Notes under the pieces: generated by a model
Databases searched by the model: none
Seen by the model: the letters and a program-made list of their open reading frames with translations, nothing else
Told to the model about the DNA's origin: nothing
Position numbers and translations under genes: made by a program
Shown: in pieces, positions 17,921 to 47,103 of the stretch
Layout: every line of letters starts with the position of its first letter
Position numbering within the stretch: the first letter of the stretch is position 1
Assembly: GCA_903951425.1 (NCBI GenBank)
Contig: CAJBBX010000082.1
Span: 1 to 59,548, forward strand
Direction: 5' to 3'
Source: an uncultured Chthonomonas sp.
GTDB taxonomy: Bacteria; Armatimonadota; Chthonomonadetes; Chthonomonadales; CAJBBX01
Length of the DNA: 59,548 nt

Positions 17921-20701
17921 ATGCGGCCACCCGAGGGGCGCAACGCAGGCAAGATGGAGGTCAGCGGTGGTTCGACGAGGCAGGACCATAGCGCCGTCGC
18001 CAGGGCAACCGACACCCTCGGTGCAGCCTGCCTCCAGTCGCCGGATCCCTCGTGCCTGGTCTCCGGCGGCCGTATCGTCACCGCCAACCTCGCCCTTGCC
18101 CGGCTCGTGGGTGTACACAGCCCGGAGGCGCTCCTCGGCAGGCCGCTCGCCAGCCTGATCGTTCCGGAAGAGCGGGATGCCGTAGTACGGCACCTCGCCG
18201 CGGTAGTCGGCCTGCTGCACCCGGTAGCTCCCGTGACCCATACCCTCCTGCGCGGGAGCGGCGCCGAGACGCCCGTGGACCTGTCAGCCGCTCCGTTTGC
18301 CGTTGAGGGTGGCCCCGGCGCCATCATCGCCATCCGCGATGTGGGCCACCGCGTCGGGTCCGAGCGCGCCGCGCTACGAGCCAACCGGTACCTGACCACC
18401 ATCAGTGAGTGCAGGCGGGCCGTGGTTCGCGCGACGGACGAGGAGGTCCTGCTGACCGACGTCTGCCGCCTTCTCGCCGAACACGGCGAATACAAGGGCG
18501 TTCGCGCCGGGCTCGTCGACGGCAGCCCTGAGCGCCCCTGGCTACCCGTGGCCCATTTCGGCTGTGCTTTCTGCTGCCTGGATGACCCGAGCTTCACGGT
18601 GGATCGGTGCGGCCCGGCGGTGGCGGCGCTGAACACAGGCGAGCCCGTGTTCTCCTGGCAGATGCCACGAGCCTCTGACGGTGAGCCGTCAGCTGAACGC
18701 CGGCGCCAGTGCGATTCCGCCGTCGCCCTGCCGCTTGAGGTCGATGGCGACGTGATCGGCACGATCATGATCAATGCCGATGGGAGCGTGCCACTGGAGC
18801 CCGGGGAGGCCGAGATGCTGGCCGGGCTGGCCGAGGACATCGCGTACGGCATGAAGGCCCTGCGGTCGCGGGTCCAGCAAGACAAGGACCGCGAGGCCCT
18901 GCACCGAAGCCAGAGCCGCCTCATGGCATTGAGCCAGGCGAGCCAGCAGTTGAGCCGAGCCCTGGACGTCGGTCAGGTGCTTCGATGCCTGCGCAACTGG
19001 GTCCATGACCTGATGCCGTGCGACGGCTTCACCGTGTCGTCCTACTCTCAGGAAGAGCAGCGGATTCGGTGCGTCCTCGCCATCGTCGGCGACCATGAGC
19101 ATGATCCGGCATCGCTGCCGTCGTTGGCCCTGGGCGCCGAGGGGAGCAGCATACAGGGCGACGTGATCCGAAGCGGCGCGCCCATTCTGAGCAACGACTA
19201 CCGCTCCCGCCTGAAGCGGAACCCGCCGCTCTGCTACATGGGCGACAGTGGACAGGTCGCCCAACCGGAAGACCAGCAGATCGACGAGGATGCGGTGCCG
19301 CGATCGGCCATGTTGGTCCCGATGATCCTTGACGGCGTCGTGCGCGGCGTCATTCAGGTGATCACCATGGAGGAGAGCGCCTACACGGACGAGCATCTGG
19401 AGTTGCTCCAGGCCCTTGCGGCTCCTGCGGCCGTGGCGTTCAGCAACGCCGAGCTCTTCCGGCAGGCGCAGGAGGAGATCGTCGAGCGCAAGCGGGCAGA
19501 GGAGCAACGGGCGCAGATGGAGACGCAACTGCTCCATGCGCAGAAGATGGACGCCATGGGGCGTTTGGCCGGCGGCGTAGCCCACGACTTCAACAACCTG
19601 CTCACCGGCATAGTGCATGCCATCGACCTGGCCCGCGACCATGTGGCCGCCGACCACAGCGTCCGGGAGCACCTTGACGCCCTGGCTCAGGATGCCGGAC
19701 GGGCGACGGCCCTGACACGCCAACTCCTGGCCTTCTCCCGGAAGCAGGTTACCGCGCCTCGGCCCACCGACCTGAATGACATCGTCGGCAAGATGCTGAC
19801 GATGCTCCAGCGCGTGATCGGCCCGCGAATTAACGTGACATGGGCGCCGTGCTCCGAGCGAACCATCGTGATGGTAGACCCGGCGCAGTTTGACCAGGTC
19901 GTCATGAACCTCGTCGTCAACGCCAGAGACGCTGTCTCGGGTTCCGGCCGCATTATGCTGTCTACCTATGCCATCGAGGTATCGGCGGCTGAGGCTACCC
20001 AGGATGGGCGCATGGTCGCGGGCGCCTACGCGGTTCTCGCCTGCAGTGATGACGGGTGCGGTATGGACGAGCCGACGATCCAACGCCTTTTCGAGCCATT
20101 CTTCACGACGAAGGGCGTGGGCCACGGCACCGGCCTGGGCCTTGCCACGGTCTACGGCATCGTCAAGCAGGCTCACGGGTTCATCAATATAGAATCGGAG
20201 CCCGGCGTGGGCTCCGTGTTCCGCGTGCTGCTCCCACGTGTGGCCGAGGTCGAGGCGGCGGCGAAGGCCCAGATCTCCATTGAGGAGCCCGTCGGCGGAA
20301 CGCAGCCGCAGAGCGGCACCATCCTGGTCTGCGAGGACGAGCGGTCGATCCTGACGACCGTGCGGCGCTTCCTGGTTGCCGCCGGGTACACGGTGTTGCC
20401 GGCGCCGACACCCGAAGAGGCGGTCAGGCTGGCATCGGAGTTCGCCGGCACGATCGACCTGCTGATCACGGACATCATGATGCCCGGCCAGACCGGCGAC
20501 GAACTGGCTCAGAGCCTCTCCGAGCAGCGCCCGGGCCTGAGGCGCATCTTTATGTCGGGCTACACAGACGATGTCGTGATGGAGCGAGGCATCCTGGCGG
20601 CAGGGGCGGAGTTTCTGGGCAAGCCGTTCACGCGCGACGACCTGCTCAAAGCGGTCTGCCGGTCGCTCAGTCGCCCGACGAGCGATGCTCGCGCCGGCTA
20701 A
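17921..20701 (+). CDS. Hybrid sensor histidine kinase (PAS-GAF-GAF-HisKA-HATPase-receiver)
   Basis: 926 residues with no membrane segment, so a cytosolic sensor. A PAS domain (about 35-140) is followed by a cysteine-containing GAF-like domain (about 152-310, with 'FGCAFCCLDDPSF') and a second GAF-like domain (about 338-515). A short coiled coil leads to HisKA with His555 in 'GGVAHDFNNLLTGI'. The ATPase domain has 'MNLVVNARDAV', 'SDDGCGMDE' and 'GHGTGLGLATVYGIVKQ'. The C-terminal receiver (about 800-920) has Asp851 in 'LLITDIMMPGQTGDE'. The kinase core is of the HDFNN type. GGGAG upstream of ATG 17921 supports the start. It converges on the B12-protein/kinase operon with a four-base overlap of stop codons. 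No DNA-binding output is nearby, so the receiver may act as a phosphate sink or relay. Confidence 0.9.
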   Translation: MRPPEGRNAGKMEVSGGSTRQDHSAVARATDTLGAACLQSPDPSCLVSGGRIVTANLALARLVGVHSPEALLGRPLASLIVPEERDAVVRHLAAVVGLLHPVAPVTHTLLRGSGAETPVDLSAAPFAVEGGPGAIIAIRDVGHRVGSERAALRANRYLTTISECRRAVVRATDEEVLLTDVCRLLAEHGEYKGVRAGLVDGSPERPWLPVAHFGCAFCCLDDPSFTVDRCGPAVAALNTGEPVFSWQMPRASDGEPSAERRRQCDSAVALPLEVDGDVIGTIMINADGSVPLEPGEAEMLAGLAEDIAYGMKALRSRVQQDKDREALHRSQSRLMALSQASQQLSRALDVGQVLRCLRNWVHDLMPCDGFTVSSYSQEEQRIRCVLAIVGDHEHDPASLPSLALGAEGSSIQGDVIRSGAPILSNDYRSRLKRNPPLCYMGDSGQVAQPEDQQIDEDAVPRSAMLVPMILDGVVRGVIQVITMEESAYTDEHLELLQALAAPAAVAFSNAELFRQAQEEIVERKRAEEQRAQMETQLLHAQKMDAMGRLAGGVAHDFNNLLTGIVHAIDLARDHVAADHSVREHLDALAQDAGRATALTRQLLAFSRKQVTAPRPTDLNDIVGKMLTMLQRVIGPRINVTWAPCSERTIVMVDPAQFDQVVMNLVVNARDAVSGSGRIMLSTYAIEVSAAEATQDGRMVAGAYAVLACSDDGCGMDEPTIQRLFEPFFTTKGVGHGTGLGLATVYGIVKQAHGFINIESEPGVGSVFRVLLPRVAEVEAAAKAQISIEEPVGGTQPQSGTILVCEDERSILTTVRRFLVAAGYTVLPAPTPEEAVRLASEFAGTIDLLITDIMMPGQTGDELAQSLSEQRPGLRRIFMSGYTDDVVMERGILAAGAEFLGKPFTRDDLLKAVCRSLSRPTSDARAG

Positions 20702-21780
20702 GCAGGCGCCGTGCGAAGGGGCAGCGTCACGACGAACCTTGCGCCGCCGCCCGGTGTCTCCTCAAGCTGCACGTTGCCGCCATGCCCCTCGACGATCCTG
20801 CGCACGATGCTCAGGCCCAGACCCACGCCCGTCTTGTCCTTGGACGCGCCGGTAACCTGGTAGGGTTGGAACAAGCACGCTCGCTCCTCCGGCGCCATTC
20901 CCTGGCCGTGATCGGTCACCGTCAGGCGCGCCGCTACCTCGCCGAAGGCCAGATCGATCTCAACGCGGGCTCCGGCCGGAGAGTGCTTGTCTGCGTTGTC
21001 AAGCAGATTGTGGAGCGCTTCCTCGATCTTGCCTCTATCCAGCATCAGCGGCGGGCCGGCGCCCTCGATCGTCAGCACCGCGCTATCATGCAGCCGCGCC
21101 GAGACGGTGCGATGCAACTTGACGCTCCGGCTCACCAGGTCGGCGAGATCGGTCGGCGCGAAGGTGAAGCGCATGGCGCCGGTACCGATTGTCGCGGCGT
21201 CCAGATAGATCCCTGCTAGGACGCGCACATACTCGGCCGACGATTGGATGGTCTCCAGATACTCTCGGTGTACGTCGGACAGGGTCGGTCCCAACTCCTC
21301 CAGGAGCGCCTCGGCGAGCACGGAAATGGCTCCGTTGGGCGTCTGTAGAGCATGTGCGGCCATGCCCACGAACTGATCCTTCAGCGCGTTCAGGCGATCC
21401 ATCGCCACGTTCTGTTTCGCCATCTTCCGCTGCAGGTTGGCCAGCATGTTGTTCAGCCGCGTCACCTCGTCGTAGAGGCCCAGCGGCACGGCGGAACCCA
21501 TCAGCAGGATGCCGTCCGGCGTTACGGCGCCGTTGAGGCCGAGGCATACGGTGGCGCCGTCGATGGCGACGCTGATCTCCCAACCCAGCACGGCGCCCTG
21601 ATCAGCCAGGGCTTGCTGGAACGCTGCCACTTTGGCCAGGCTCTCCGGTTCGGCGATCTGAGCGAAGGGCAGGCCGACCAACGGCGCGAGCCCGACAGTG
21701 TCACAGACGACTTGCCTGACCAGACCTTCGGTGGAGCACAGGACGACAAAGCCCGCGGCTCCAACGGTATCGGCGCTCAT
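20698..21780 (-). CDS. PAS-type sensor histidine kinase, partner of the B12-binding protein
   Basis: A 360-residue cytosolic kinase. An N-terminal PAS-like domain (about 8-95) is followed by a coiled coil (about 100-135), HisKA with His143 in 'GMAAHALQTPNGAIS', and an ATPase domain with the N box 'LHNLLDNADKHSP', G1 'TDHGQGMAPEE' and G2 'GVGLGLSIVRRIVEGHGG'. AGGAGAG precedes the ATG. The start overlaps the stop of the B12-binding protein gene (ATGA at 21777-21780), so both are translated from one mRNA and probably act as a complex. The HisKA motif 'HALQTP' departs from the usual 'HELRTP'. No receiver is fused. The only receiver in the neighbourhood belongs to the convergent hybrid kinase. Confidence 0.9.
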   Translation of the reverse strand: MSADTVGAAGFVVLCSTEGLVRQVVCDTVGLAPLVGLPFAQIAEPESLAKVAAFQQALADQGAVLGWEISVAIDGATVCLGLNGAVTPDGILLMGSAVPLGLYDEVTRLNNMLANLQRKMAKQNVAMDRLNALKDQFVGMAAHALQTPNGAISVLAEALLEELGPTLSDVHREYLETIQSSAEYVRVLAGIYLDAATIGTGAMRFTFAPTDLADLVSRSVKLHRTVSARLHDSAVLTIEGAGPPLMLDRGKIEEALHNLLDNADKHSPAGARVEIDLAFGEVAARLTVTDHGQGMAPEERACLFQPYQVTGASKDKTGVGLGLSIVRRIVEGHGGNVQLEETPGGGARFVVTLPLRTAPA

Positions 21781-22826
21781 GGTTTCTCTCCTGGGACGAG
21801 CCGGTCCGCGACGGCGATCGCGGTATCCGGGTCCGGCGCGAAGCCGTCGGCCCCCACGGTTCGCCAGAGATCGGGTGAGACGAGGAATGGAAACCCGCCC
21901 ACCATCACACTGACCCCGCTGGTCCGCTCCGAAGCGCGCACCGCCGCGATGGTCTCCTCCACCAGATGCACGTGGTACACCATCGTGGCCGAGAGGGCCA
22001 GCAGGTGTGCGTCGTACTCCTCGATGGCCGCCAGGATGCCGCCCGTGGTCATGTTGGCGCCTAGGTAGTAGGTGTCCCAGCCTGCCATCTCCATGAGGTC
22101 GGTCACCATCCGGATGCCCAGTTCGTGGAGCTCGCCTCCAACGCAGGTTGCCACCATGCGCCGGTCCGAAGTGACGCCCGAGAAGACGTACGGGCAGAGC
22201 TGCGCCATGACAAGCTGGGTGGCAGCAGTGCAGTAGTGCTCCTGCGCCACGGAGATCCTGTTCATTTGCCATAGGCGGCCCACTTCGCGGAGGCAGGGCT
22301 GGAAGACATGGACGTAGATGTCACGGATCGGCGCCCCGTCGCCGGCAGACTGCAGCACCAGTTCGGACGCCTTCCGGCGGTCGGCGGCAAGGAGCCTGTC
22401 CAGATACTGGCGGGCCGTTGCGGCGTATGGCGCATCGCGGTCGAGGTAGCTCGGCGCCGTGTCAGGCGAGCCCGGGAGCGCCGCCAGGGCCGTGTCGAGG
22501 ATAGGAACGACGGCGCTGGTCGTCGCTCCGGGCGCGCACTCCGTGATGGCGTAGCGCAACGCCTCCAGGACCGACTCCACGGACTGGCCGGTTTGCGGCT
22601 TGGTGGCATAGCGCACCTTGAGCCACTGCGCGTAGTTGACAAATAGAGCGTTGTCGCCTGTGCGTATGGCCTCAGCCAGATACGCAAGGTGATCGGAATT
22701 GTCGTCGTCGACTGCCCTGCGCGAGGTTGCGGAGCCCCCGGGGTACAGACGGCGCGATATGGCGCGAGAGAGTTGCGGGCTTAACTCCAGGACCGCATGG
22801 GCGGTTGAGAGTTGATTCGTACTCAT
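21777..22826 (-). CDS. CarH-like cobalamin-binding protein, candidate B12 photoreceptor
   Basis: 349 residues. The N-terminal part (about 40-110) is a helical domain ('AIRTGDNALFVNYAQWLKVR'). The middle (about 115-215) is a helical cap containing 'LWQMNRISVAQEH', that is Trp186-x9-Glu196-His197, the W-x9-EH signature of the CarH/LitR cap that surrounds the adenosyl group. The C-terminal Rossmann-like domain (about 222-345) has 'GGELHELGIRMV' with His234 as candidate lower axial ligand, then 'SATMVYH' and 'VMVGGFPF'. The Trp186-to-His234 distance is close to that of CarH. Unlike CarH there is no MerR DNA-binding domain. Instead the gene is fused translationally to a histidine kinase, so the likely role is light- or AdoCbl-dependent control of that kinase. 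Confidence 0.88.
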   Translation of the reverse strand: MSTNQLSTAHAVLELSPQLSRAISRRLYPGGSATSRRAVDDDNSDHLAYLAEAIRTGDNALFVNYAQWLKVRYATKPQTGQSVESVLEALRYAITECAPGATTSAVVPILDTALAALPGSPDTAPSYLDRDAPYAATARQYLDRLLAADRRKASELVLQSAGDGAPIRDIYVHVFQPCLREVGRLWQMNRISVAQEHYCTAATQLVMAQLCPYVFSGVTSDRRMVATCVGGELHELGIRMVTDLMEMAGWDTYYLGANMTTGGILAAIEEYDAHLLALSATMVYHVHLVEETIAAVRASERTSGVSVMVGGFPFLVSPDLWRTVGADGFAPDPDTAIAVADRLVPGEKP

Positions 22827-25130: not shown

Positions 25131-26564
25131 CTATGGGGTCGCCAGGTCAGCGACGGCCTGGTCGAGGAAGCGGCGGGCGAACTGCACGAAGCGGTGTACG
25201 TCAGCGAAGTTGCTGGCAAGGCCCACGGAGACGCGCACCGCGCCGGTGCTCTTGTCGTCGATGCAGCGGCGGAAGTCGTCGTGCGTCATGCGCTGGCGGT
25301 TCTTGATGAAGCAGGAGGTCAACTCGCCCGACGATATGCCCAGGGCCAGTTCGCCGCCGCCCGGGTTGCAGAAGCAGCCCGCCCGGAGCGAAATGCCCTC
25401 CTCCGTGGCCAGGTGCTCGACGACGCGATGGTCCACGAAGCGCCCATCGCGGTCGAACAGGTTCAGTGTGATGCACCCGCCCCTGTGGCGCATGTCCCAT
25501 GGACCGTAGAGGCGCACCAGCGGCAGCCCGCCGGCGTGGTGCATCCCCTCCAACTCGGTGAGAAGCCAGGCCGTCAGGCACCGCACGCGAGCGTGGACGG
25601 TGTCGATCCCCACGGCGGAGAGGTGGCGCAGGCCGATGGTGACCGCCGGCAGGGAGAGGTAGTTCAGCGTGCCGTCCTCGAACGCCTCGGCGCCCTCCTG
25701 CAGGTAGTGCCGGTCGGGCTGCACCGAGGCGACGGTAATGGTCCCACCGGCGAACCACGGCCGGTGCAGCCTCGCCAGCGCCCGCTTCCGCGCGATGAGG
25801 GCGCCCACGCCGGTGGGGTAGCCCAGCATCTTGTAGAACGAGAGCGTGACGAAGTCCGGTCCCAGCGTCCCGATGTCCAGCCGGTTTGTCGGCACGAAGG
25901 CCGCGGCGTCCAGCAGCACGTCCCAGCCCTGCTCCTGTGCGCGGCCCACCCACTCCAGGGAGTGCTGCACGCCGGAAAAGTTGGACTGGGCCGGGTAGGC
26001 GAAGAGGCCCCTGTGGCCCGGTTGCAGTGCCCGCAGGCGCTCTTCCAGCCGAGCTTCATCGAGGCGTAGCTCCGGCGGCAGCACCGGCGCGTAGGCCACC
26101 GCAGCGCCCTTGGACCGGGCAAACTCCCGGATGCCGTTCACCGAGTTGTGGTTGTCGAACGTCAGCAGGTACCGGGCGCCCGGCCCAAACGGGTAGGACT
26201 CCCCCACCAGCTTCAGGGCTCCGCTGGCGTTCTGCGTGAAGATGACAACGTACTCGTCGCCGGGCGCGAAAAAGTGCTCCAGCACCGCCTGCCTCGCCTC
26301 CTCGACCAGACGCGTCATGGCCAGGGAGCTGGGGTTGATTGAGTGCGGGTTCCCGAAGACGCTGCCAAGCAGCAGTTCGGCGTGCGTGCGGACCTGCGAC
26401 TCGGCGTAGAGGCCACCGCCGGTGTAGTCGAGATAGACGTGGCCCAGACGGTCCAGGCGCGAGTAGTCGGCGGCTCGGAGGTCGTCCAACGAGCGCGTGG
26501 CGGCGTACTCGGGGCACTCGGCGGCCCTGGCGCAACACGAAGTCCCCGGCAGGTCGAGGGTCAT
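25131..26564 (-). CDS. Class V aminotransferase / cysteine desulfurase-like PLP enzyme
   Basis: 477 residues, PLP-dependent, cytosolic. 'YLDYTGGGLYAESQVRTHAE' is the N-terminal substrate region. Lys245 in 'VTLSFYKMLGYPTGVGALI' is the Schiff-base lysine. 'SLRAGCFCNPGGGE' holds the Cys found at the active-site loop of desulfurases and MoCo-sulfurase-like proteins. The N-terminus is unusually Cys-rich ('GTSCCARAAECPEY'). The overall layout is closest to MoCo sulfurase N-terminal domains and to CsdA/NifS-like relatives. It is the last gene of a leftward four-gene unit, starting 17 bases after the UroD-like gene. The reaction in that pathway cannot be told: desulfuration, or cleavage or amination of a catabolic intermediate. 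Confidence 0.82.
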   Translation of the reverse strand: MTLDLPGTSCCARAAECPEYAATRSLDDLRAADYSRLDRLGHVYLDYTGGGLYAESQVRTHAELLLGSVFGNPHSINPSSLAMTRLVEEARQAVLEHFFAPGDEYVVIFTQNASGALKLVGESYPFGPGARYLLTFDNHNSVNGIREFARSKGAAVAYAPVLPPELRLDEARLEERLRALQPGHRGLFAYPAQSNFSGVQHSLEWVGRAQEQGWDVLLDAAAFVPTNRLDIGTLGPDFVTLSFYKMLGYPTGVGALIARKRALARLHRPWFAGGTITVASVQPDRHYLQEGAEAFEDGTLNYLSLPAVTIGLRHLSAVGIDTVHARVRCLTAWLLTELEGMHHAGGLPLVRLYGPWDMRHRGGCITLNLFDRDGRFVDHRVVEHLATEEGISLRAGCFCNPGGGELALGISSGELTSCFIKNRQRMTHDDFRRCIDDKSTGAVRVSVGLASNFADVHRFVQFARRFLDQAVADLATP

Positions 26565-26581: not shown

Positions 26582-27715
26582 TCAGCCGGCCAGCTTGCCG
26601 AAGTCGCCGGCCAGCAGGTCACGCTTGGCGTCCATGTAGTAGCGGAAGTTGTCCCACGAGATGTCCGGCGGCACGGTGTGGTCGATGGTGGGTATGAAGC
26701 CGCCCTCCTCGATGAGCGGGGCCATCTCCAGCAGGTGCGCGCGGGTCTCCGCCTGGCCGCGGGCCACCACGCGCTTGTCCACGCCGCCCCAGAGCAGGAG
26801 GTCCTTGCCGAACCGCTTGCGCCAGACCATGGGGCTCACTTCGGAGGCGCGCTCAATGGGCCAGAGGATATCGACGCCGGCTTCCATGAAGAGCGGGATC
26901 AGGGGCGTCGGGTCGCCGTCGGTGTCCAGCGCGAACCAGCGCACGCCGTTGGACTTCATGAACGCCACGAGCCGCTTCAGGTGCGGAAGGATGAACTTGC
27001 GGAAGGTTGCCGGGCTGAGCAGCGGGCCGGACTTCATGGAGAGGTCCTCGTTCAGGCAGAAGTACTCCACGTTGGTGGCGGCCAGCGCGGGCTTGCTGGT
27101 CTCGATGATCAGGTCTGCGAAGAACTCCATCATCTCGTGGCAAAGCGCCGGGTAGTCGTACCACGCCGTGGAGAGCTCCTCGGTGCCCATCCACTCGCGG
27201 GCGCGCCAGTAGAAGCCCGTGGCCTGGCAGTTGTGTCCGAGGATGAGCGGGTAGTCGCGGCTGCGCCACCGCTCGGCCTGGGCGGCGAGGTCCGCGGGTA
27301 TGCGCTGCGTCGAGGGCTGCAGGCGCCGCTTGATGTCTGGCCAGTCCTCGGGCGTGCGGAGCGGGTGGGCCAGGTACTGGTCCATCGACATTCGGCCGCC
27401 GCCTACGGTGCCCTCCTTCAGGGCCTTGTGGGTGATGCCCAGGCCGTCGCGGAATATCTCGTAATCCTCGGTCTCCTCCAGCATGGTGTGCTCGAAGGGC
27501 GGGATGAAGGAGTAGTTGAGGCTCACATACTCACGGCGGTCGAGGCCGAGGCCTGGCTCGGCCACGAACCAGTTCCAACAGAAGTCCTTGATCGCCTCGG
27601 GCGCCTCGTCACGCCATCGCATGACGGTCTGCGGCCAGACCCCCAGTTCGTGGTTCGGCCGGCGGTCGGCAGGCTGGTACGTCATGCAGGCGACGAAACG
27701 CTCGAGGTCGGTCAT
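26582..27715 (-). CDS. Uroporphyrinogen decarboxylase-family protein (not HemE)
   Basis: 377 residues with the UroD/MtaA-type TIM barrel. 'ERFVACMTYQPADRRPNHE' is the usual opening. Later segments are 'FCLNEDLSMKSGPLLSPATF', 'ALDTDGDPTPLIPLFMEAG' and 'LLWGGVDKRVVARGQAET', the last being the family's 'GGIDK' region. The N-terminal Arg-rich substrate loop of true HemE is absent, so tetrapyrrole decarboxylation is unlikely. Members of this branch are cobalamin- or corrinoid-linked methyltransferase-like or uncharacterised catabolic proteins. It is third in a leftward unit, 90 bases after the NagB-like gene. Confidence 0.85.
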   Translation of the reverse strand: MTDLERFVACMTYQPADRRPNHELGVWPQTVMRWRDEAPEAIKDFCWNWFVAEPGLGLDRREYVSLNYSFIPPFEHTMLEETEDYEIFRDGLGITHKALKEGTVGGGRMSMDQYLAHPLRTPEDWPDIKRRLQPSTQRIPADLAAQAERWRSRDYPLILGHNCQATGFYWRAREWMGTEELSTAWYDYPALCHEMMEFFADLIIETSKPALAATNVEYFCLNEDLSMKSGPLLSPATFRKFILPHLKRLVAFMKSNGVRWFALDTDGDPTPLIPLFMEAGVDILWPIERASEVSPMVWRKRFGKDLLLWGGVDKRVVARGQAETRAHLLEMAPLIEEGGFIPTIDHTVPPDISWDNFRYYMDAKRDLLAGDFGKLAG

Positions 27716-33788: not shown

Positions 33789-35498
33789 TTGATCGACAGG
33801 CGGCTACTGCACGACGCCCTGCCCGAGCGGGGGCGGCTTGCAGCAGCCGTTCTGCTTGGGGGCCTCGGAGCCGCCGCCGCTTGCGTGCAGTGGGCCGGCG
33901 CGGCAGGCTTCGTGGACGCGATCCTCCTGCGCGGCAAGACCGCCGGCCAGGCGCTCCCCTGGCTCGCCGCCTTCGGCCTGGCCGCCGCCCTGCGAGCCGT
34001 GGCGGGCTTCGCTGCGGATGCCCTGTCTGCCGGCGCAGGCCTGCGATTGCGCGAGCTACTGCGACTGCGGCTGGCCAGGCGCATCGCGGCCATGGGACCC
34101 GCAGCGGTAGGGCGCGAGCGCTCCGCCGAACTCACCACCACGCTCACCGAAGGCGTCGACTCGCTGGAGCCTGCCTTCTCGCAGTTCGTGCCGCAGGCCG
34201 GCGTGGCCCTGCTCGCGCCGCTCATCATTCTGGTTGCCGTCACGTGGCGCGACCCGATCTCGGGCGCGATCCTCTTCATCACCGGCCCGCTGGCCCCGCT
34301 CTTCATGGCCCTCATCGGCAAGCTGGCCCAGGAGCGCTCGCAGCGGCAGTGGGGCGCACTGGCGAGGCTGGGGGCGCACCTGCTCGACTCGCTGGAGGGG
34401 CTGGCCACGCTGCGAGCCTACGGCCAGGTGGGCCGACGGCTGGGTGAAACAAGGGCGGCCACGGAGCGCTTCCGCGACGCCACCATGGACGTGGTGCGCA
34501 TCGCCTTCCTCTCCGCCTTCGCGCTGGAGATGATCGGCACCCTGAGCACGGCGCTGGTGGCCGTGCAGGTGGGCATCAGGCTCCTCTACGGCCGCATGGA
34601 GTTTGCCCCGGCCCTGACGGTCCTCATGCTCGCGCCGGAGTTCCACGCGCCGCTCAGGGCATTGGGCGCCCGGTTCCACACCATGGTCTCGGCCAACGCG
34701 GCCGCTTCGCGGGTATATGGCCTGCTAGATGGCCCCGAGCCTGGAGCACAACCGGCCGGCGAGGCTGATGCTGGTCCGGGGCGCATCACGCTGGACTGCG
34801 TCAGCTATCGCTATCCGGGCGCAGAAGCCCACGCCCTGCGAGGCGCCAGCGCGGAGCTACCCGAGCGCGGGCTCGTCGCCGTTGTGGGCCGGTCCGGAGC
34901 CGGTAAGAGCACCCTGGCTCGCCTGCTGCTGGGCTGGATCGAGCCTGCGGCAGGCTCCCTCAGACGAGGCGGCACGGTCTGGCGTCCGAGGCCCGGCGAG
35001 GCGGCCTGGCTCTCGCAGCAACCCTACCTGTTCCACGCCACTGTGGCCCAGAACCTCCGATCCGCCGATCCCCAGGCGTCCGAGGAGCGCCTTTGGGATG
35101 CCCTCCGAGAGGCGTCGGCAGAGGGCTTCGTGCGCGACCTGCCCCGTGGGCTCGACACGGTGCTGGGCGACCGCGGCGGACGCCTCAGCGCGGGACAGGC
35201 GCAACGCATCGCACTCGCCCGGACGCTCCTGCAGCCGGCGCCGCTAGTGCTCCTGGATGAGCCCACCTCCAACCTCGACGCCCTCACCGAGGAGGCGGTC
35301 TCGGCCGCCGTGCAGCGCATGGCCGGCTCACGGCTCGTTGTGGTGATCGCTCACCGCGTGCAGACCTGTCGCGCCGCCGACCTGGTGGTGCTGCTGGAGG
35401 AGGGCGTCGTGGCCCAGCACGGTCGGTACGACGAACTGGCGTCGGTGGCCGGCCCCTTCGCCGACCTGGTCCGCGCTGCCCATGGGACTGAGACATGA
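33789..35498 (+). CDS. cydD: ABC transporter subunit CydD (cytochrome bd assembly)
   Basis: 569 residues, half of the CydDC exporter that moves heme and/or thiols across the inner membrane for cytochrome bd assembly. A six-helix membrane domain (about 1-310) precedes the ATPase domain with Walker A 'GRSGAGKST', a variant signature 'LSAGQAQR', Walker B 'LVLLDEPTSNLD' and H-loop 'VVVIAHRVQ'. Order and length match CydD. The first start in frame is TTG 33789, without a clear ribosome-binding site; coupling to cydB translation (19 bases) may help. The gene overlaps cydC by four bases (ATGA). Confidence 0.93.
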   Translation: MIDRRLLHDALPERGRLAAAVLLGGLGAAAACVQWAGAAGFVDAILLRGKTAGQALPWLAAFGLAAALRAVAGFAADALSAGAGLRLRELLRLRLARRIAAMGPAAVGRERSAELTTTLTEGVDSLEPAFSQFVPQAGVALLAPLIILVAVTWRDPISGAILFITGPLAPLFMALIGKLAQERSQRQWGALARLGAHLLDSLEGLATLRAYGQVGRRLGETRAATERFRDATMDVVRIAFLSAFALEMIGTLSTALVAVQVGIRLLYGRMEFAPALTVLMLAPEFHAPLRALGARFHTMVSANAAASRVYGLLDGPEPGAQPAGEADAGPGRITLDCVSYRYPGAEAHALRGASAELPERGLVAVVGRSGAGKSTLARLLLGWIEPAAGSLRRGGTVWRPRPGEAAWLSQQPYLFHATVAQNLRSADPQASEERLWDALREASAEGFVRDLPRGLDTVLGDRGGRLSAGQAQRIALARTLLQPAPLVLLDEPTSNLDALTEEAVSAAVQRMAGSRLVVVIAHRVQTCRAADLVVLLEEGVVAQHGRYDELASVAGPFADLVRAAHGTET

Positions 35499-37210
35499 GC
35501 CGCCTCCTGCGTATGCTCATCCCGATCCGGCGCTCTCTGGCCTTCGGTGCGCTACTGGGAGCCGCCACGGTGGGCTCGTCGGTGGCGTTGCTGGCCTGCT
35601 CGGCGTTCATCATCTCCCGCGCGGGACAGCAGCCCACCATGGAGGCCATCGCCATTCCGGTGGTGGGCGTGCGCCTTTTCGGCATCCTGCGCGGGGTGCT
35701 GCGATACCTGGAGCGGCTCGTGGTACACGACGCCACATTTCAAGTGCTGGCCGATGTGCGCGTGGGCCTGCTGCGGGCGGCCGCGCCGCATGTGCCCGGC
35801 CTGTGGGTCACCGAGAAGCGCGCCGACTGGCTGGCCCGCGCGGTCTCCGACGTGGAGGCGCTGCAGGGCTTCGTGGCACGGGCCGCGGCGCCCACGCTCG
35901 CGGCTGTGGCCATGGCGGTCGCAGTGCCGCTCTGGGTCGGTTCGCTGGCTCCCGCAGGCGGATGGGTCTGCCTCGGGGGCATGCTCTGCGCGGGCTGGCT
36001 GATCCCGGCGGTGACGCGCGGACTGACGCGCCGCCCCAGCCGCGACGCGCTCTCGGCTCGCGCCGACCTCGTCGAAGCCGCCCTGGACTGCGTGCAGGGG
36101 CTCCCCGAACTCACCGCCATGGGCCGCCGCCAGGAGGCGCTCGGCCGCGTCGATGCCGCAGCTGACGCCATGGCTGCTGCCCAAATGCGCACATCGCTGG
36201 CGCAGGCCGCCGGCGCGTGGGCGGCACAGGCGCTGGCCTGGGGCGCGACCGGACTAATCCTCTGGCTCTGCGCCGTCGAAGCGTCGGCCGGGCGTCTGCC
36301 ACATGTGATGGTCGCCGTGGGCGCCCTGGGGGCGCTGGCGGGCTTCGAGACCGCCTTGGGACTGCCGGCGGCGTGGCAACAGACCGAAGTGAGCCGCGCC
36401 GCTGCCGACCGCGTGGAGGAGCTAGCGGACCGCCCATCGCCTCCCGTACCCCACGGAGGCGAGGTCGCGCCGGAGCCCTTCCTGCCCATCGCAGTGGCTG
36501 ATCTCACGCTCCGCTACGCGGCTGATGCCCCGCCTGCGCTGGACGGAGTGAGCCTGGCGCTCCGGCCCGGCTCCATGGTCGCGCTGGTGGGATCTAGCGG
36601 ATCGGGCAAGTCCACGCTGGCCTGGGCGCTTTGCGGCCTGCTGCCGGTGGAAGGCGGGCGCATCACGGCGCACGGGAAGCCGCAGTCGGCGATCGACAGC
36701 GATGCGTGGCGCGCACGGATCGCCCTCGTCTCGCAGGACGCGCACCTCTTCGATGCCACGGTGGCCGCCAACGTCGGACTGGGTTCCGGCGCCGGACCCG
36801 CCGAGGTGCATGACGCCGCCCGAGCCGCGCAGGCCGACGGCTTCGTGCGGTCGCTGCCGCAGGGCTACGAGACCCTCGTGGGCGAGCGCGGGTCCAGCCT
36901 CAGCGGAGGGCAGCGGCGGCGCATCACGGTCGCCCGGGCGCTGGCCCGCAGGGCCGACCTGACCATCCTCGACGAGGCGGGTGCCGACCTGGACCCCATC
37001 ACCGAGGCCGAGATGCTCCGCTCCGTGCGCGCGCATTGCGCCAACGGGGCGCTACTGGTGATCTCCCACAGGCCTGCGGCCGTAGCCGACGCCGACGAGA
37101 TCCTCGTGCTGGCCGATGGCCGCGTTGCACAGCGAGGCCGCCACACCGACCTGCTTGCCGCGCCCGGCCCCTACCGTCGGCTGTGGGAGGCCCAGGCGTT
37201 GGCGGGTTGA
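35495..37210 (+). CDS. cydC: ABC transporter subunit CydC (cytochrome bd assembly)
   Basis: 571 residues, partner of CydD. The membrane domain has 'ALLACSAFIISRAGQQP' and 'PVVGVRLFGILRGVLRYLER', both typical of CydC. The ATPase domain has Walker A 'GSSGSGKST', signature 'LSGGQRRR', Walker B 'LTILDEAGADLD' and H-loop 'LLVISHRP'. The Walker B follow-on 'EAGADLD' departs from the usual 'EPTAHLD', but the catalytic Glu is kept. It ends the cyd operon at TGA 37210, followed at once by a heptad repeat array. Confidence 0.93.
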   Translation: MSRLLRMLIPIRRSLAFGALLGAATVGSSVALLACSAFIISRAGQQPTMEAIAIPVVGVRLFGILRGVLRYLERLVVHDATFQVLADVRVGLLRAAAPHVPGLWVTEKRADWLARAVSDVEALQGFVARAAAPTLAAVAMAVAVPLWVGSLAPAGGWVCLGGMLCAGWLIPAVTRGLTRRPSRDALSARADLVEAALDCVQGLPELTAMGRRQEALGRVDAAADAMAAAQMRTSLAQAAGAWAAQALAWGATGLILWLCAVEASAGRLPHVMVAVGALGALAGFETALGLPAAWQQTEVSRAAADRVEELADRPSPPVPHGGEVAPEPFLPIAVADLTLRYAADAPPALDGVSLALRPGSMVALVGSSGSGKSTLAWALCGLLPVEGGRITAHGKPQSAIDSDAWRARIALVSQDAHLFDATVAANVGLGSGAGPAEVHDAARAAQADGFVRSLPQGYETLVGERGSSLSGGQRRRITVARALARRADLTILDEAGADLDPITEAEMLRSVRAHCANGALLVISHRPAAVADADEILVLADGRVAQRGRHTDLLAAPGPYRRLWEAQALAG

Positions 37211-43341: not shown

Positions 43342-43478
43342 GCGTGGGTCTCCTTGCTGGGATTACATATTACTGAGGGGTTCGCCGAGCCGGATGATAG
43401 GGCGCGTTGGGGCCTGTTGGGGCCATACTTAGGGTGCGTTCGCGCCTCGCCCGCAACGGATTGGCGCCGTCCCCATAT

Positions 43479-45230
43479 ATGAGAGCATTCCGAAGACTTA
43501 ACACCTTCCTGCGACCCTACCGCACGTGGGCCATCCTGGCGCCGCTCTGCATGGTGCTGGAAGTCGCCATGGACGTGCTGCAGCCGCGGCTCATCCAGAG
43601 CATCATCGACCAGGGCATCGGCAGGCACGACCAGGCGCATGTGGTCCACACGGGCCTCGCCATGCTGGGCGTGGCGCTGGTGGGAATCCTGGGCGGCGTG
43701 CTCTGCACCGTCTTCGCCGTCTGGGTCTCCGAGGGGTACGCCGCCGACCTGCGCCGGGCGCTCTTCGCCAAGGTGCAGACGCTCTCATTCGCCAACCTGG
43801 ACACGCTGGAGACCGGCGCGCTCATCACGCGGCTCACCAACGACGTGACCCAGGTTCAGAACCTGGTGATGGCCATGCTCCGCTTCATGGTGCGCGTTCC
43901 GCTGCTGCTGGTAGGGAGCCTCACCATGGCCGTCGTCACCAGCCCAAAGCTCGCGACGCTTTTCCTGCCGTTGACCCCGCTGGTGGCCGTGACGCTGGCG
44001 CTCATCATCCGCAAGAGCTACCCGCTCTACGGCCTGGTGCAGGCGCGGCTGGATGCGCTGAATACCGTGCTGCAGGAGAACCTGGCCGGCGTTCGAGTGG
44101 TGAAGGCCTTCGCCCGGGCGGACCACGAGGGCCGGCGGTTCGGCCGCGCCAACGAGGACCTCGTGATGACTAACATCACCGTGGCCAGGATCGGCGCCGC
44201 CACCATGCCGCTGATGATGCTCTTCCTCAATCTGGGCGTCGTCTCCGTACTATGGCTGGGCGGTTACTGGTCGGTACACCACGGGCTGGAGGTGGGCCGC
44301 ATCGTCGCCTTCGTGAACTACATGGTCCAGACGCTAATGTCGCTCATGATCGTAAGTATGCTGATCATGATGCTCAGCCGGTCCGAGGCCAGCGCCAAAC
44401 GGCTGAACGAGGTACCCGACAGCGTGCCGCGCGTGACCCCGCCGGAGGCCCCCGAGGCGCCCGAGGCCCTGCGCGGACGGCTTGCCTTCGAGAACGTGAG
44501 CTTCGCCTACGACGGCGAGGAGAACCGGCCCGCCCTCTCCGACCTGAGCTTCGTTGTGGAGCCCGGCGAGACCGTGGCCGTGCTGGGCGCCACGGGCTCC
44601 GGCAAGTCCTCCCTGGTGGGCCTGGCGCCGCGGTTCTACGACGTGACGGCCGGGCGCGTGACGCTGGATGGCGTGGACGTGAGACGGATCGACCCCGATC
44701 TCCTGCGCCGCGCGGTGGTGGTGGCGCTGCAGGAGACCGTCCTCTTCAGCGGCTCGGTGCGCGACAACATCCGCTACGGCCGTCCAGATGCCACCGACGA
44801 GGAAGTGGAGGTGGCCGCCCGCGCGGCCGAGGCCGACGGCTTCATCCGAGGCATGGCCGAAGGCTACGACACGGTGGTGGGCCAGCGCGGTGTGAACCTC
44901 TCCGGCGGCCAAAAGCAGCGTATCGCCATTGCCCGGGCGCTACTGGTGCGGCCGGCACTGCTCATCATGGACGACAGCACCAGCGCGGTGGACGTGCGCA
45001 CCGAGGCGCGCATCCGCCAGAACCTGGTCGCAACCGCCGGGGGGCAGTCGCGCCTCATCGTGGCGCAACGGGTCAGCTCTGCCATGGGCGCCGACCGTGT
45101 GATCGTGCTCGATGAGGGGCGGCTCGTGGCGCAGGGCTCCCACACCGAACTGCTGCGCACGAGCCCGATCTACCGCGAGATATACGAGTCCCAGATGGAA
45201 CCGGGGGTACACGCCGATGCCTCCGCCTAG
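43479..45230 (+). CDS. Heterodimeric ABC exporter, subunit with degenerate ATP site
   Basis: 583 residues: six-helix membrane domain (about 1-315) plus ATPase domain (about 340-575). Walker A is 'GATGSGKSS' and the signature 'LSGGQKQR', but Walker B reads 'LLIMDDSTSAVD' with Asp in place of the catalytic Glu, and the H-loop 'LIVAQRVSS' has Gln in place of His. This is the inactive-site subunit of TM287/TM288-type heterodimers. ATG 43479 starts at 'MRAFRRLNTFLRPYRTW', the usual family N-terminus, but has no Shine-Dalgarno, so leaderless translation or the upstream TTG 43407 is possible. It overlaps the second subunit gene by 14 bases. Confidence 0.9.
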   Translation: MRAFRRLNTFLRPYRTWAILAPLCMVLEVAMDVLQPRLIQSIIDQGIGRHDQAHVVHTGLAMLGVALVGILGGVLCTVFAVWVSEGYAADLRRALFAKVQTLSFANLDTLETGALITRLTNDVTQVQNLVMAMLRFMVRVPLLLVGSLTMAVVTSPKLATLFLPLTPLVAVTLALIIRKSYPLYGLVQARLDALNTVLQENLAGVRVVKAFARADHEGRRFGRANEDLVMTNITVARIGAATMPLMMLFLNLGVVSVLWLGGYWSVHHGLEVGRIVAFVNYMVQTLMSLMIVSMLIMMLSRSEASAKRLNEVPDSVPRVTPPEAPEAPEALRGRLAFENVSFAYDGEENRPALSDLSFVVEPGETVAVLGATGSGKSSLVGLAPRFYDVTAGRVTLDGVDVRRIDPDLLRRAVVVALQETVLFSGSVRDNIRYGRPDATDEEVEVAARAAEADGFIRGMAEGYDTVVGQRGVNLSGGQKQRIAIARALLVRPALLIMDDSTSAVDVRTEARIRQNLVATAGGQSRLIVAQRVSSAMGADRVIVLDEGRLVAQGSHTELLRTSPIYREIYESQMEPGVHADASA

Positions 45231-47103
45231 CAGACCCGCCGCGCAGAGGCCCGACGTGGCGCCGCCCATCTTCGGCCGGCATGGTCCCGGCCACGGCATG
45301 GGTCCCGGAGGCCGCGCCAAGGACGCCCGCGGAGCCGTGCGCCGCCTCTGGGGCTACATCCGCGGGCAGCAGGCGCCACTCGTCATCGCGTCGCTCCTGG
45401 CCATCGCAACCACTTTTCTGGGCCTGCTGGGCCCGTTCCTGATGACCCGGGCCATCGACCGGTGCATCATCCCGCGCGACCTGACCGCCCTGTCGCGGAC
45501 CATGCTGATGATGCTGGCGGCCTACGTGGCGGGCTCGGCGCTCACGTGGGTGCAGGGCCTCATCATGGCCGGCGTGGCACAGCGCACCATCCAAGCCGTG
45601 CGGAGCGACCTCTTCGCCGCCATGCAACGCCTTCCGCTGCGGTACTTCGACACGAAGTCGCACGGCGACCTGATGAGCCGCCTGACCAACGACGTGGAAG
45701 CTATCAGCCGCGTCATGTCTGACAGCGTCACCGGGCTCGTGGCCGGGCTGCTGGGCATGATCGGCGCCGCGGCCATGATGCTGAGCATCAACGCGGCGCT
45801 GGCGTTGGCCACCATGCTCACCGTCATCGGCAGCACGCTGGTGACCAGCCGCTGGCTCGGAAGCCGCATCGGCAAGGCCATGCGGGCGCAGCAGGGCAGC
45901 CTCGGCGCACTCAACGGGATCATCGAGGAGACCCTGGGCGGCCAGAAGGCGGTCATCGCCTACCGCCGGCAGTCGATCGCGCTGGAGGAGTTCGACGCCA
46001 AGAACGCCGAACTGCGGAAGGCCGCCATCGGCGCGCAGATGTACGCCGGATACATGGGCCCCTTCATGAACGGCTCCAACAACATCTGCATGGCCGTGGT
46101 GGCCGGGCTTGGAGGCCTGCTGGCTCTGCGCGGCGCGGCTACCGTGGGCGCCATCGCCGGGTTCATCTCTTACGCGCGCTACTTCGGCCGCCCGCTGGCC
46201 GAGATCGGCAACCTGTACGGCGGCATCCAGGGCGCCCTGGCCGCTGCTGAGCGCGTCTTCGAGGTGATGGACGAGCGTCCCGAAGTGGACGCCGCCCCCG
46301 GCGCCGAGCGATTGGCCTTGCGCGGCGAAGTGACACTGGAAGACGTCTGCTTCGGCTATGAGCCCGACGTGCCCGTACTCAAGGACGTGAGCCTCCATGC
46401 CGAGCCGGGCGAGACCGTGGCCCTGCTCGGCCCCACCGGCGCGGGCAAGACCACCGTCATCAACCTCCTCACCCGCTTCTACGACGTCGACACCGGCCGC
46501 ATCCTGATCGACGGCCGGGACATCCGCGAGCTGCCCAAGGCCGAGCTACGACGGCAGGTGGCGCTGGTGCTGCAGGACCCCTACCTCTTTGCCGGCGACG
46601 TGCGGGAGAACATCCGCTACGGCCGCCTGGACGCCACCGACGATGAGGTGGTCCGCGCCGCCGAGGCCGCCAATGCTCACGGGTTCATCGAGCGCCTGCC
46701 CCACGGCTACGAGACGCACCTCTCCGAGCGCGGCTCCAACCTGAGCCAGGGGCAGCGGCAGCTGATCAGCATCGCCCGGGCGATCCTGGCAGACCCGCGG
46801 CTACTGATCCTCGACGAGGCCACCAGCAGCGTGGACACACGCACCGAGCAGCACATCCAGCAGGCTATGGCCCGGCTGATGGAGGGGCGCACCAGCTTCG
46901 TCATAGCGCACCGGCTCAGCACCATCCGCAAGGCCGACCAGATCCTCACCATCCGCGCCGGCCGCATTCGCGAGCGGGGCAACCACGCCCAGCTCATGGC
47001 GCTACGCGGCGAGTACTGGGCGCTCACCACCGGCAACGCCGGCGAGGCCGTGGACGACGAGCTCGACGCCAGCCAAACCCAAGCGGCGACGGCTACGGCG
47101 TGA
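45217..47103 (+). CDS. Heterodimeric ABC exporter, subunit with consensus ATP site
   Basis: 628 residues. An unusual Gly/Pro/His-rich N-terminal stretch of about 35 residues precedes the membrane domain (about 38-340) and ATPase domain (about 365-600). Walker A is 'GPTGAGKTT', the signature 'LSQGQRQL' (Gln for Gly), Walker B 'LLILDEATSSVD' with catalytic Glu, and H-loop 'FVIAHRLST'. With the preceding gene it makes a complete exporter with one functional and one degenerate site. Substrates of such pumps include drugs, lipids and peptides; none is indicated here. It converges on the radical SAM gene, overlapping by 11 bases. Confidence 0.92.
   Translation: MPPPSRPAAQRPDVAPPIFGRHGPGHGMGPGGRAKDARGAVRRLWGYIRGQQAPLVIASLLAIATTFLGLLGPFLMTRAIDRCIIPRDLTALSRTMLMMLAAYVAGSALTWVQGLIMAGVAQRTIQAVRSDLFAAMQRLPLRYFDTKSHGDLMSRLTNDVEAISRVMSDSVTGLVAGLLGMIGAAAMMLSINAALALATMLTVIGSTLVTSRWLGSRIGKAMRAQQGSLGALNGIIEETLGGQKAVIAYRRQSIALEEFDAKNAELRKAAIGAQMYAGYMGPFMNGSNNICMAVVAGLGGLLALRGAATVGAIAGFISYARYFGRPLAEIGNLYGGIQGALAAAERVFEVMDERPEVDAAPGAERLALRGEVTLEDVCFGYEPDVPVLKDVSLHAEPGETVALLGPTGAGKTTVINLLTRFYDVDTGRILIDGRDIRELPKAELRRQVALVLQDPYLFAGDVRENIRYGRLDATDDEVVRAAEAANAHGFIERLPHGYETHLSERGSNLSQGQRQLISIARAILADPRLLILDEATSSVDTRTEQHIQQAMARLMEGRTSFVIAHRLSTIRKADQILTIRAGRIRERGNHAQLMALRGEYWALTTGNAGEAVDDELDASQTQAATATA

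Follow-up and report, generated by a model that had tools for sequence, protein, structure and literature searches.

A metagenome assembly of an uncultured lake armatimonad (G000) carries the gene of a predicted photocobilin that probably acts in trans, by way of a coil, on the product of an overlapping partner gene; in this organism the likeliest outcome would be light-gated dephosphorylation. The window, which is the whole stretch of 59,548 nucleotides that was analysed, was compared with the corresponding regions of two sister species (L001 and L002), whose B12 proteins are 87-89% identical to the window copy, and with more distant relatives.

Gene layout and coupling

The photocobilin gene is whole (349 amino acids plus stop codon; 22826..21777, minus strand) and is followed on the same strand by the partner kinase gene (360 amino acids; 21780..20698), which encodes a HisKA domain with the H-box HALQTP and a HATPase domain. 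The two genes overlap by four bases, ATGA, as a sequence-only reading of this DNA had stated. The same ATGA overlap was found in L001, L002, G009, G255, G405, G604, G811, and G818; in other relatives the partner gene was close to or overlapping the B12 gene, with its start inside or just past the B12 stop codon. Across several phyla, the B12 gene was either fused to, or directly upstream of, an output gene (HisKA, HisKA_2, GGDEF, or zinc-finger-like). One such fusion, in L003, joins the B12 protein to HisKA, HATPase, and two receivers. The L003 record is titled as a Klebsiella pneumoniae MAG; its contig is not Klebsiella-like, its genome has a heme oxygenase, and the title is probably wrong. 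A search of genomes for B12 proteins of this type beside kinases had been proposed earlier, and the search revealed kinase adjacency conserved among relatives, the one fusion, and the partner-specific coil described below.

Within the genus, dN/dS was 0.12-0.17 for the photocobilin gene and 0.15-0.22 for the kinase gene. Both genes are therefore under purifying selection, and decay of the sensor-partner pair was ruled out by these values (0.12-0.22). Viral contigs yielded no relative, and no cobalamin riboswitch or other RNA except one tRNA was found in the window. Near the pair, genes for a URO-D-family protein (26582-27715, minus strand) and a class-V aminotransferase (25131-26564, minus strand) lie in a row that is conserved in L001. 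Elsewhere in the window, two overlapping ABC exporter gene pairs (33789-37210 and 43407-47103, plus strand) probably encode heterodimeric exporters.

A hybrid kinase gene (17921..20701, plus strand; PAS-GAF-GAF-HisKA-HATPase-receiver by Pfam) converges on the pair, with domains and position as previously described. This gene was kept beside the pair in three genus members and was absent there in all other regions fetched. The sequence-only reading had made the hybrid kinase part of the pathway; given its convergent orientation, and since among the regions fetched it adjoins the pair in this genus alone, it is at most a candidate component. In G001 (L065, 11301-16556), the hybrid kinase occurs as two tandem paralogues adjoining the pair.

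The B12 protein is a predicted photocobilin

A four-helix cap and a Rossmann B12-binding domain were assigned to residues 126-349 (21780..22451, minus strand) by Pfam, an AF2 model, and a fold search. The motif W186-x9-E196-H197 occurs once in the 349-residue protein, and the axial H234 lies 48 residues beyond W186, so that the four residues named earlier were exactly placed. Pfam matched B12-binding_2 at 138-210 (E 7e-15) and B12-binding at 223-332 (E 1e-18). In a PDB sequence search, the best relatives were the photocobilins 8j2w and 8j2x (E 4e-23), then CtMerR (8jbs), with CarH at about 1e-6. The AF2 model, built from five sequences, had a pLDDT of 86; it starts with five helices, which are followed by a helix bundle and a Rossmann fold. 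A fold search (VIA) with this model returned photocobilins at Z 26.2 and 25.6, AerR at 20.7, and CarH at 19.9, all over residues 131-347 only, which is the B12 part without the globin. Structure prediction against CarH had been proposed as a check on the claim of a CarH/LitR-type cap and B12 domain, and the modelled fold, the Pfam and PDB matches, and the fold search all support that claim.

Neither Pfam nor the family profile detected an N-terminal MerR-type DNA-binding domain in the B12 protein, which agrees with the earlier statement that there is none; the N-terminal residues, approximately 125 in number, are a bilin-type globin. The description of the protein as a CarH without its DNA-binding domain was therefore correct for the B12 part, which is of CarH type, but incomplete for the whole, since the additional globin makes it a photocobilin. 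As in photocobilins, the CarH-type cap and Rossmann B12 domain carry the W...EH and E/DxH motifs, and the profile, Pfam, and held-out analyses place the globin within the same protein. Because of the globin profile matches, residues D42 and W68, and a B12 part that is closest to photocobilins, the sequence and the model identify the protein as a predicted photocobilin with the globin first, followed by the CarH-type cap and B12 fold.

The globin (residues 1-125; 22452..22826, minus strand) was assigned from the profile, Pfam, the held-out test, and the AF2 model, and was visible to the family profile only: the N-terminal 129 residues alone gave no useful match in the PDB, and single-sequence Pfam coverage of the window protein was confined to residues 138-332. 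In addition to photocobilins and CarH, a profile of eleven full-length relatives matched allophycocyanin, phycocyanin, and smURFP chains in the PDB at profile positions 3-129 (E 1e-6 to 1e-3), as well as the C-terminal globins of SasPcob (2.5e-5) and AbPcob (8e-4). The Pfam family Phycobilisome was matched singly by 4 of the 11 members (best 5.8e-10). A profile built without the genus found window residues 1-125 at E 3e-18, compared to 0.69 for the best of 2000 shuffles. D42 (kept in 10/11 aligned relatives) and W68 (11/11) match Asp270 and Trp296 of SasPcob, the key biliverdin contacts of that protein (PMC10979010). The globin start is shorter in the window protein than in relatives. On a plasmid of Ilyobacter polytropus (L041, 4821-6864), a photocobilin-family gene overlaps a GGDEF gene and has Asn at the position of Asp42; this species is a fermentative anaerobe in which neither light nor biliverdin is expected.

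A coil common to photocobilin partners

A 32-residue coil (YDEVTRLNNMLANLQRKMAKQNVAMDRLNALK; 21379..21474, minus strand), detected with a coil model, is common to all listed partners and has a consensus around LNNELxNxQRELAKKNxEL. For held-out scoring, the model was trained without the window and G009 and applied to ORFs in 30 histidine-kinase loci of these two genomes. The partner kinases of the window and G009 scored 27 and 34 bits, respectively, and all other ORFs scored 3.7 or less. Among 291 Armatimonadota genomes there were six coil matches, 6/6 adjoining a B12 gene, and the coil was present in 6 of the 7 genomes with a strong B12-family match (Fisher 9e-12); the six matches are partly training sequences, and the weight rests on the held-out scoring and on a test of 398 further genomes from the phylum of G291. 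In that test the only new strong match was in G1062 (1.4e-7), directly behind a B12 protein that matched the family profile at E 4e-90. Weak coil matches in these 398 genomes (E 3e-4 to 6e-4) were taken as noise, and the ones inspected were not near B12 genes.

We also compared the window kinase with plasmids, among which kinases number in the thousands. Azospirillum kinases made up the top five matches, and in all five plasmid records the kinase coordinates directly follow a photocobilin gene. Since the coil-model matches adjoin B12 genes and the best plasmid matches stand behind photocobilins, the pairing of sensor and partner is, judged from these comparisons, specific and old. In four relatives of the set (G057, G945, and two Skermanella), no coil partner was found beside the B12 gene. 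In G881, the coil model gave no score to a PAS-plus-coil gene in the vicinity. In G140 (L064, 5165-7605), the B12 domain has no recognisable globin and the coil partner is still present; for that reason the coil may read the B12 part (CBD) alone and not the globin.

The outputs attached to the coil were diverse. HisKA partners were found in the window, G009, Azospirillum, G140, and G818; other HATPase-type kinases in G666, G811, and G255; a HisKA_2 partner in G405; GGDEF partners in Dehalococcoidia (L004), Ilyobacter, G604, and G567; and short zinc-finger-like partners in G416 and G521. This distribution would fit a light switch of plug-in type, to which different outputs can be attached. That the coil is a shared plug across phyla for such outputs, and here drives a kinase-minus, phosphatase-only enzyme, is a tentative proposal to which we give somewhat less than an even chance. 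In L072 (from 2532) and L073 (downstream ORF), the partners are about 95-125 amino acids long and consist of the coil and a conserved Cys-rich stretch, LPICxxCKxxRDDxGYW...CPxC; the one that was scanned matched no Pfam family, and these short proteins could be a new output type.

Partner kinase and H-box

Pfam placed HisKA (32.5 bits, cut-off 26.9) and HATPase (95 bits, cut-off 26.4) in the partner kinase and no other domain. The label of a PAS-type kinase was not confirmed; a PAS match is at most marginal. The N-terminal domain of approximately 100 residues (21481..21780, minus strand; alignment A4) is conserved among partners and possibly PAS-like; it had no match in the PDB, and Pfam gave a marginal PAS_9 match in 1 of 11 members. 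A structure of the partner kinase predicted from a single sequence had a pLDDT of 38 and was left out of the evidence.

In 3/3 genus members the H-box is HALQTP, in which Ala replaces the acidic residue after the phospho-His. An E or D follows the His in the canonical H-boxes found at the other kinase loci of the two genomes, as it does in the remaining photocobilin HisKA partners. Thus the partner has both domains of an active HisKA kinase above the Pfam cut-offs, yet its phospho-His lacks the following E/D. Replacement of the acidic residue by Ala in four HisKA kinases, CrdS and HK853 among them, abolished kinase activity and left phosphatase activity, for which the Thr/Asn at +4 is needed (PMC3510030). 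The window partner keeps the phospho-His, the ATP-binding domain, and the phosphatase Thr at +4, and its N, G1, and G2 boxes are present by inspection. The sequence-only reading had proposed that the sensor alters kinase activity. The pairing with a HisKA/HATPase protein stands, but the catalytic acid is lost. Because this kinase-specific acid is gone while the phosphatase Thr is kept, the sensor more likely alters a predicted phosphatase activity, by analogy with the studied kinases.

Light signature and cofactor supply

The signature of light-responsive CBDs (SignatureFinder, PMC11796333) comprises GxxW, EH, GxxH, and GxxxP. The first three are present in the window protein as GRLW (183-186), EH (196-197), and GELH (231-234). 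The fourth, which we assigned to the 256-260 loop by our own reading of the alignment, is GANMT in the window and GANMT and GANMN in the sister species; the nine other aligned members have Pro. A genome search found neither a PF01126 heme oxygenase nor a phytochrome, and the bilin may therefore be absent in this organism. A PduO-type cobalamin adenosyltransferase is present and gives the organism a route from cobalamin to AdoCbl. With the H-box and GxxxP changed and no standard heme oxygenase found, light control by the window copy stays a prediction, if a likely one, and the output may be dephosphorylation.

Proposed mechanism and alternatives

The analysis establishes the domains, the residues, the coupling of the genes, the partner-specific coil, and the altered H-box; binding of AdoCbl and bilin, the response to light, physical contact of sensor and partner, and the direction of the output are predictions. 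In the dark, AdoCbl held between W186/E196/H197 and the axial H234 would keep the sensor as a head-to-tail dimer. Illumination with green light, or with red light by way of the bilin where one is bound, would break the Co-C bond and open the dimer. The change would reach the partner through the conserved coil, which runs directly into the catalytic part, and perhaps also through the N-terminal domain. Most relatives have a histidine kinase or diguanylate cyclase as this catalytic part; in this genus, the likeliest result would be light-gated removal of phosphate from a response regulator whose gene lies elsewhere. It has been published that a photocobilin can activate an enzyme domain in response to light and that, in SasPcob and AbDPcob, AdoCbl photolysis alters the sensor dimer (PMC10979010).

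The main rival is a light-independent sensor of AdoCbl level, in which binding rather than photolysis sets partner activity and the genus no longer has the light and bilin functions. The altered GxxxP, the shortened globin, the changed H-box, the missing standard heme oxygenase, and photocobilin relatives for which light is doubtful, such as that of the fermenter Ilyobacter, are all consistent with such a sensor. Nevertheless, the residues that make the adenosyl and cobalt contacts in CarH (W186, E196, H197, H234, and the ExH motif) are kept, as are D42 and W68, and both genes are under purifying selection; we estimate perhaps one chance in four for this explanation. More doubtful still is a reading in which the partner retains histidine kinase activity in spite of HALQTP and serves a light-to-kinase pathway as first read, possibly running through the receiver of the hybrid kinase. 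The acid-to-Ala change kills autokinase activity in four HisKA kinases (PMC3510030), E or D is kept in the H-boxes used for comparison, and the hybrid gene is convergent, without co-transcription, and next to the pair in this genus alone among the regions fetched. This is set against the phospho-His, the N, G1, and G2 boxes, the HisKA and HATPase scores above cut-off, and conservation of the hybrid kinase in 3/3 genus members.

The B12 fold gives matches to NCBIfam MtgC models at 1e-14, and the URO-D-family gene is 4 kb away, as might be seen if the protein were a corrinoid methyl-transfer protein (MtgC/MttC-like) with no sensing role and a kinase neighbour by chance. The MtgC match is far under cut-off, and the W-x9-EH cap, the globin, the photocobilins as nearest structures, and the dedicated partner coil make this a very remote prospect. 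We favor, with moderate confidence, the light-gated photocobilin acting through the coil.

Comparison with known systems

Photoglobin-B12 proteins coupled to prokaryotic signalling proteins reportedly serve as photosensors, according to the title of Schneider et al. 2022 (PMC8717448), and PMC10979010 likewise has the globin and B12 module joined to such proteins. Light-responsive B12 domains fused to many outputs are also known (PMC11796333). The photocobilins SasPcob (8J2W/8J2X) and AbDPcob (8J2Y) share with the window protein the CarH-type AdoCbl fold and bilin-type globin (PMC10979010), the W, EH, ExH, and axial His, D42/W68 as Asp270/Trp296, and a sensor-controlled output. Their globin is C-terminal, whereas that of the window protein is N-terminal, an order already noted for some photocobilin members (PMC10979010). 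The output of AbDPcob is a fused GGDEF and that of SasPcob is STAS/PP2C partners; in the window the output has a gene of its own, which overlaps the sensor gene and encodes the coil. In the GxxxP loop, the window protein has T where these photocobilins have P. Neither the photocobilin paper nor the SignatureFinder paper (PMC10979010, PMC11796333) uses the word "kinase" in its main text, and the partner-specific coil and the kinase-minus partner may be new. Should the coil prove to be where sensor and output meet, it would provide a two-part green/red-light switch with naturally swapped output enzymes. Such a switch would be of use in optogenetics and would allow a direct test of how the effect of B12 photochemistry reaches a second protein, a question left open in the photocobilin papers.

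CarH/LitR (5C8A, 5C8D) has the same cap, Rossmann fold, W-x9-EH, and axial His; however, the window protein has no MerR DNA-binding domain and has an extra globin, and CarH is farther from it than photocobilins in sequence and fold. The SCHIC proteins AerR and AppA (7TE2, 4HEH) likewise act on a partner protein with a B12-type fold, but the partner is the transcription factor CrtJ/PpsR, there is no globin, and similarity to the window protein is lower. The HisKA kinases CrdS and HK853 (PMC3510030) share the HisKA-HATPase core, phospho-His, and phosphatase Thr/Asn with the window partner, in which the acid after the His is changed to Ala and the basic residue at +3 to Gln. As a HisKA enzyme that naturally lacks the catalytic acid, this partner would test whether light signalling makes use of phosphatase-only kinases.
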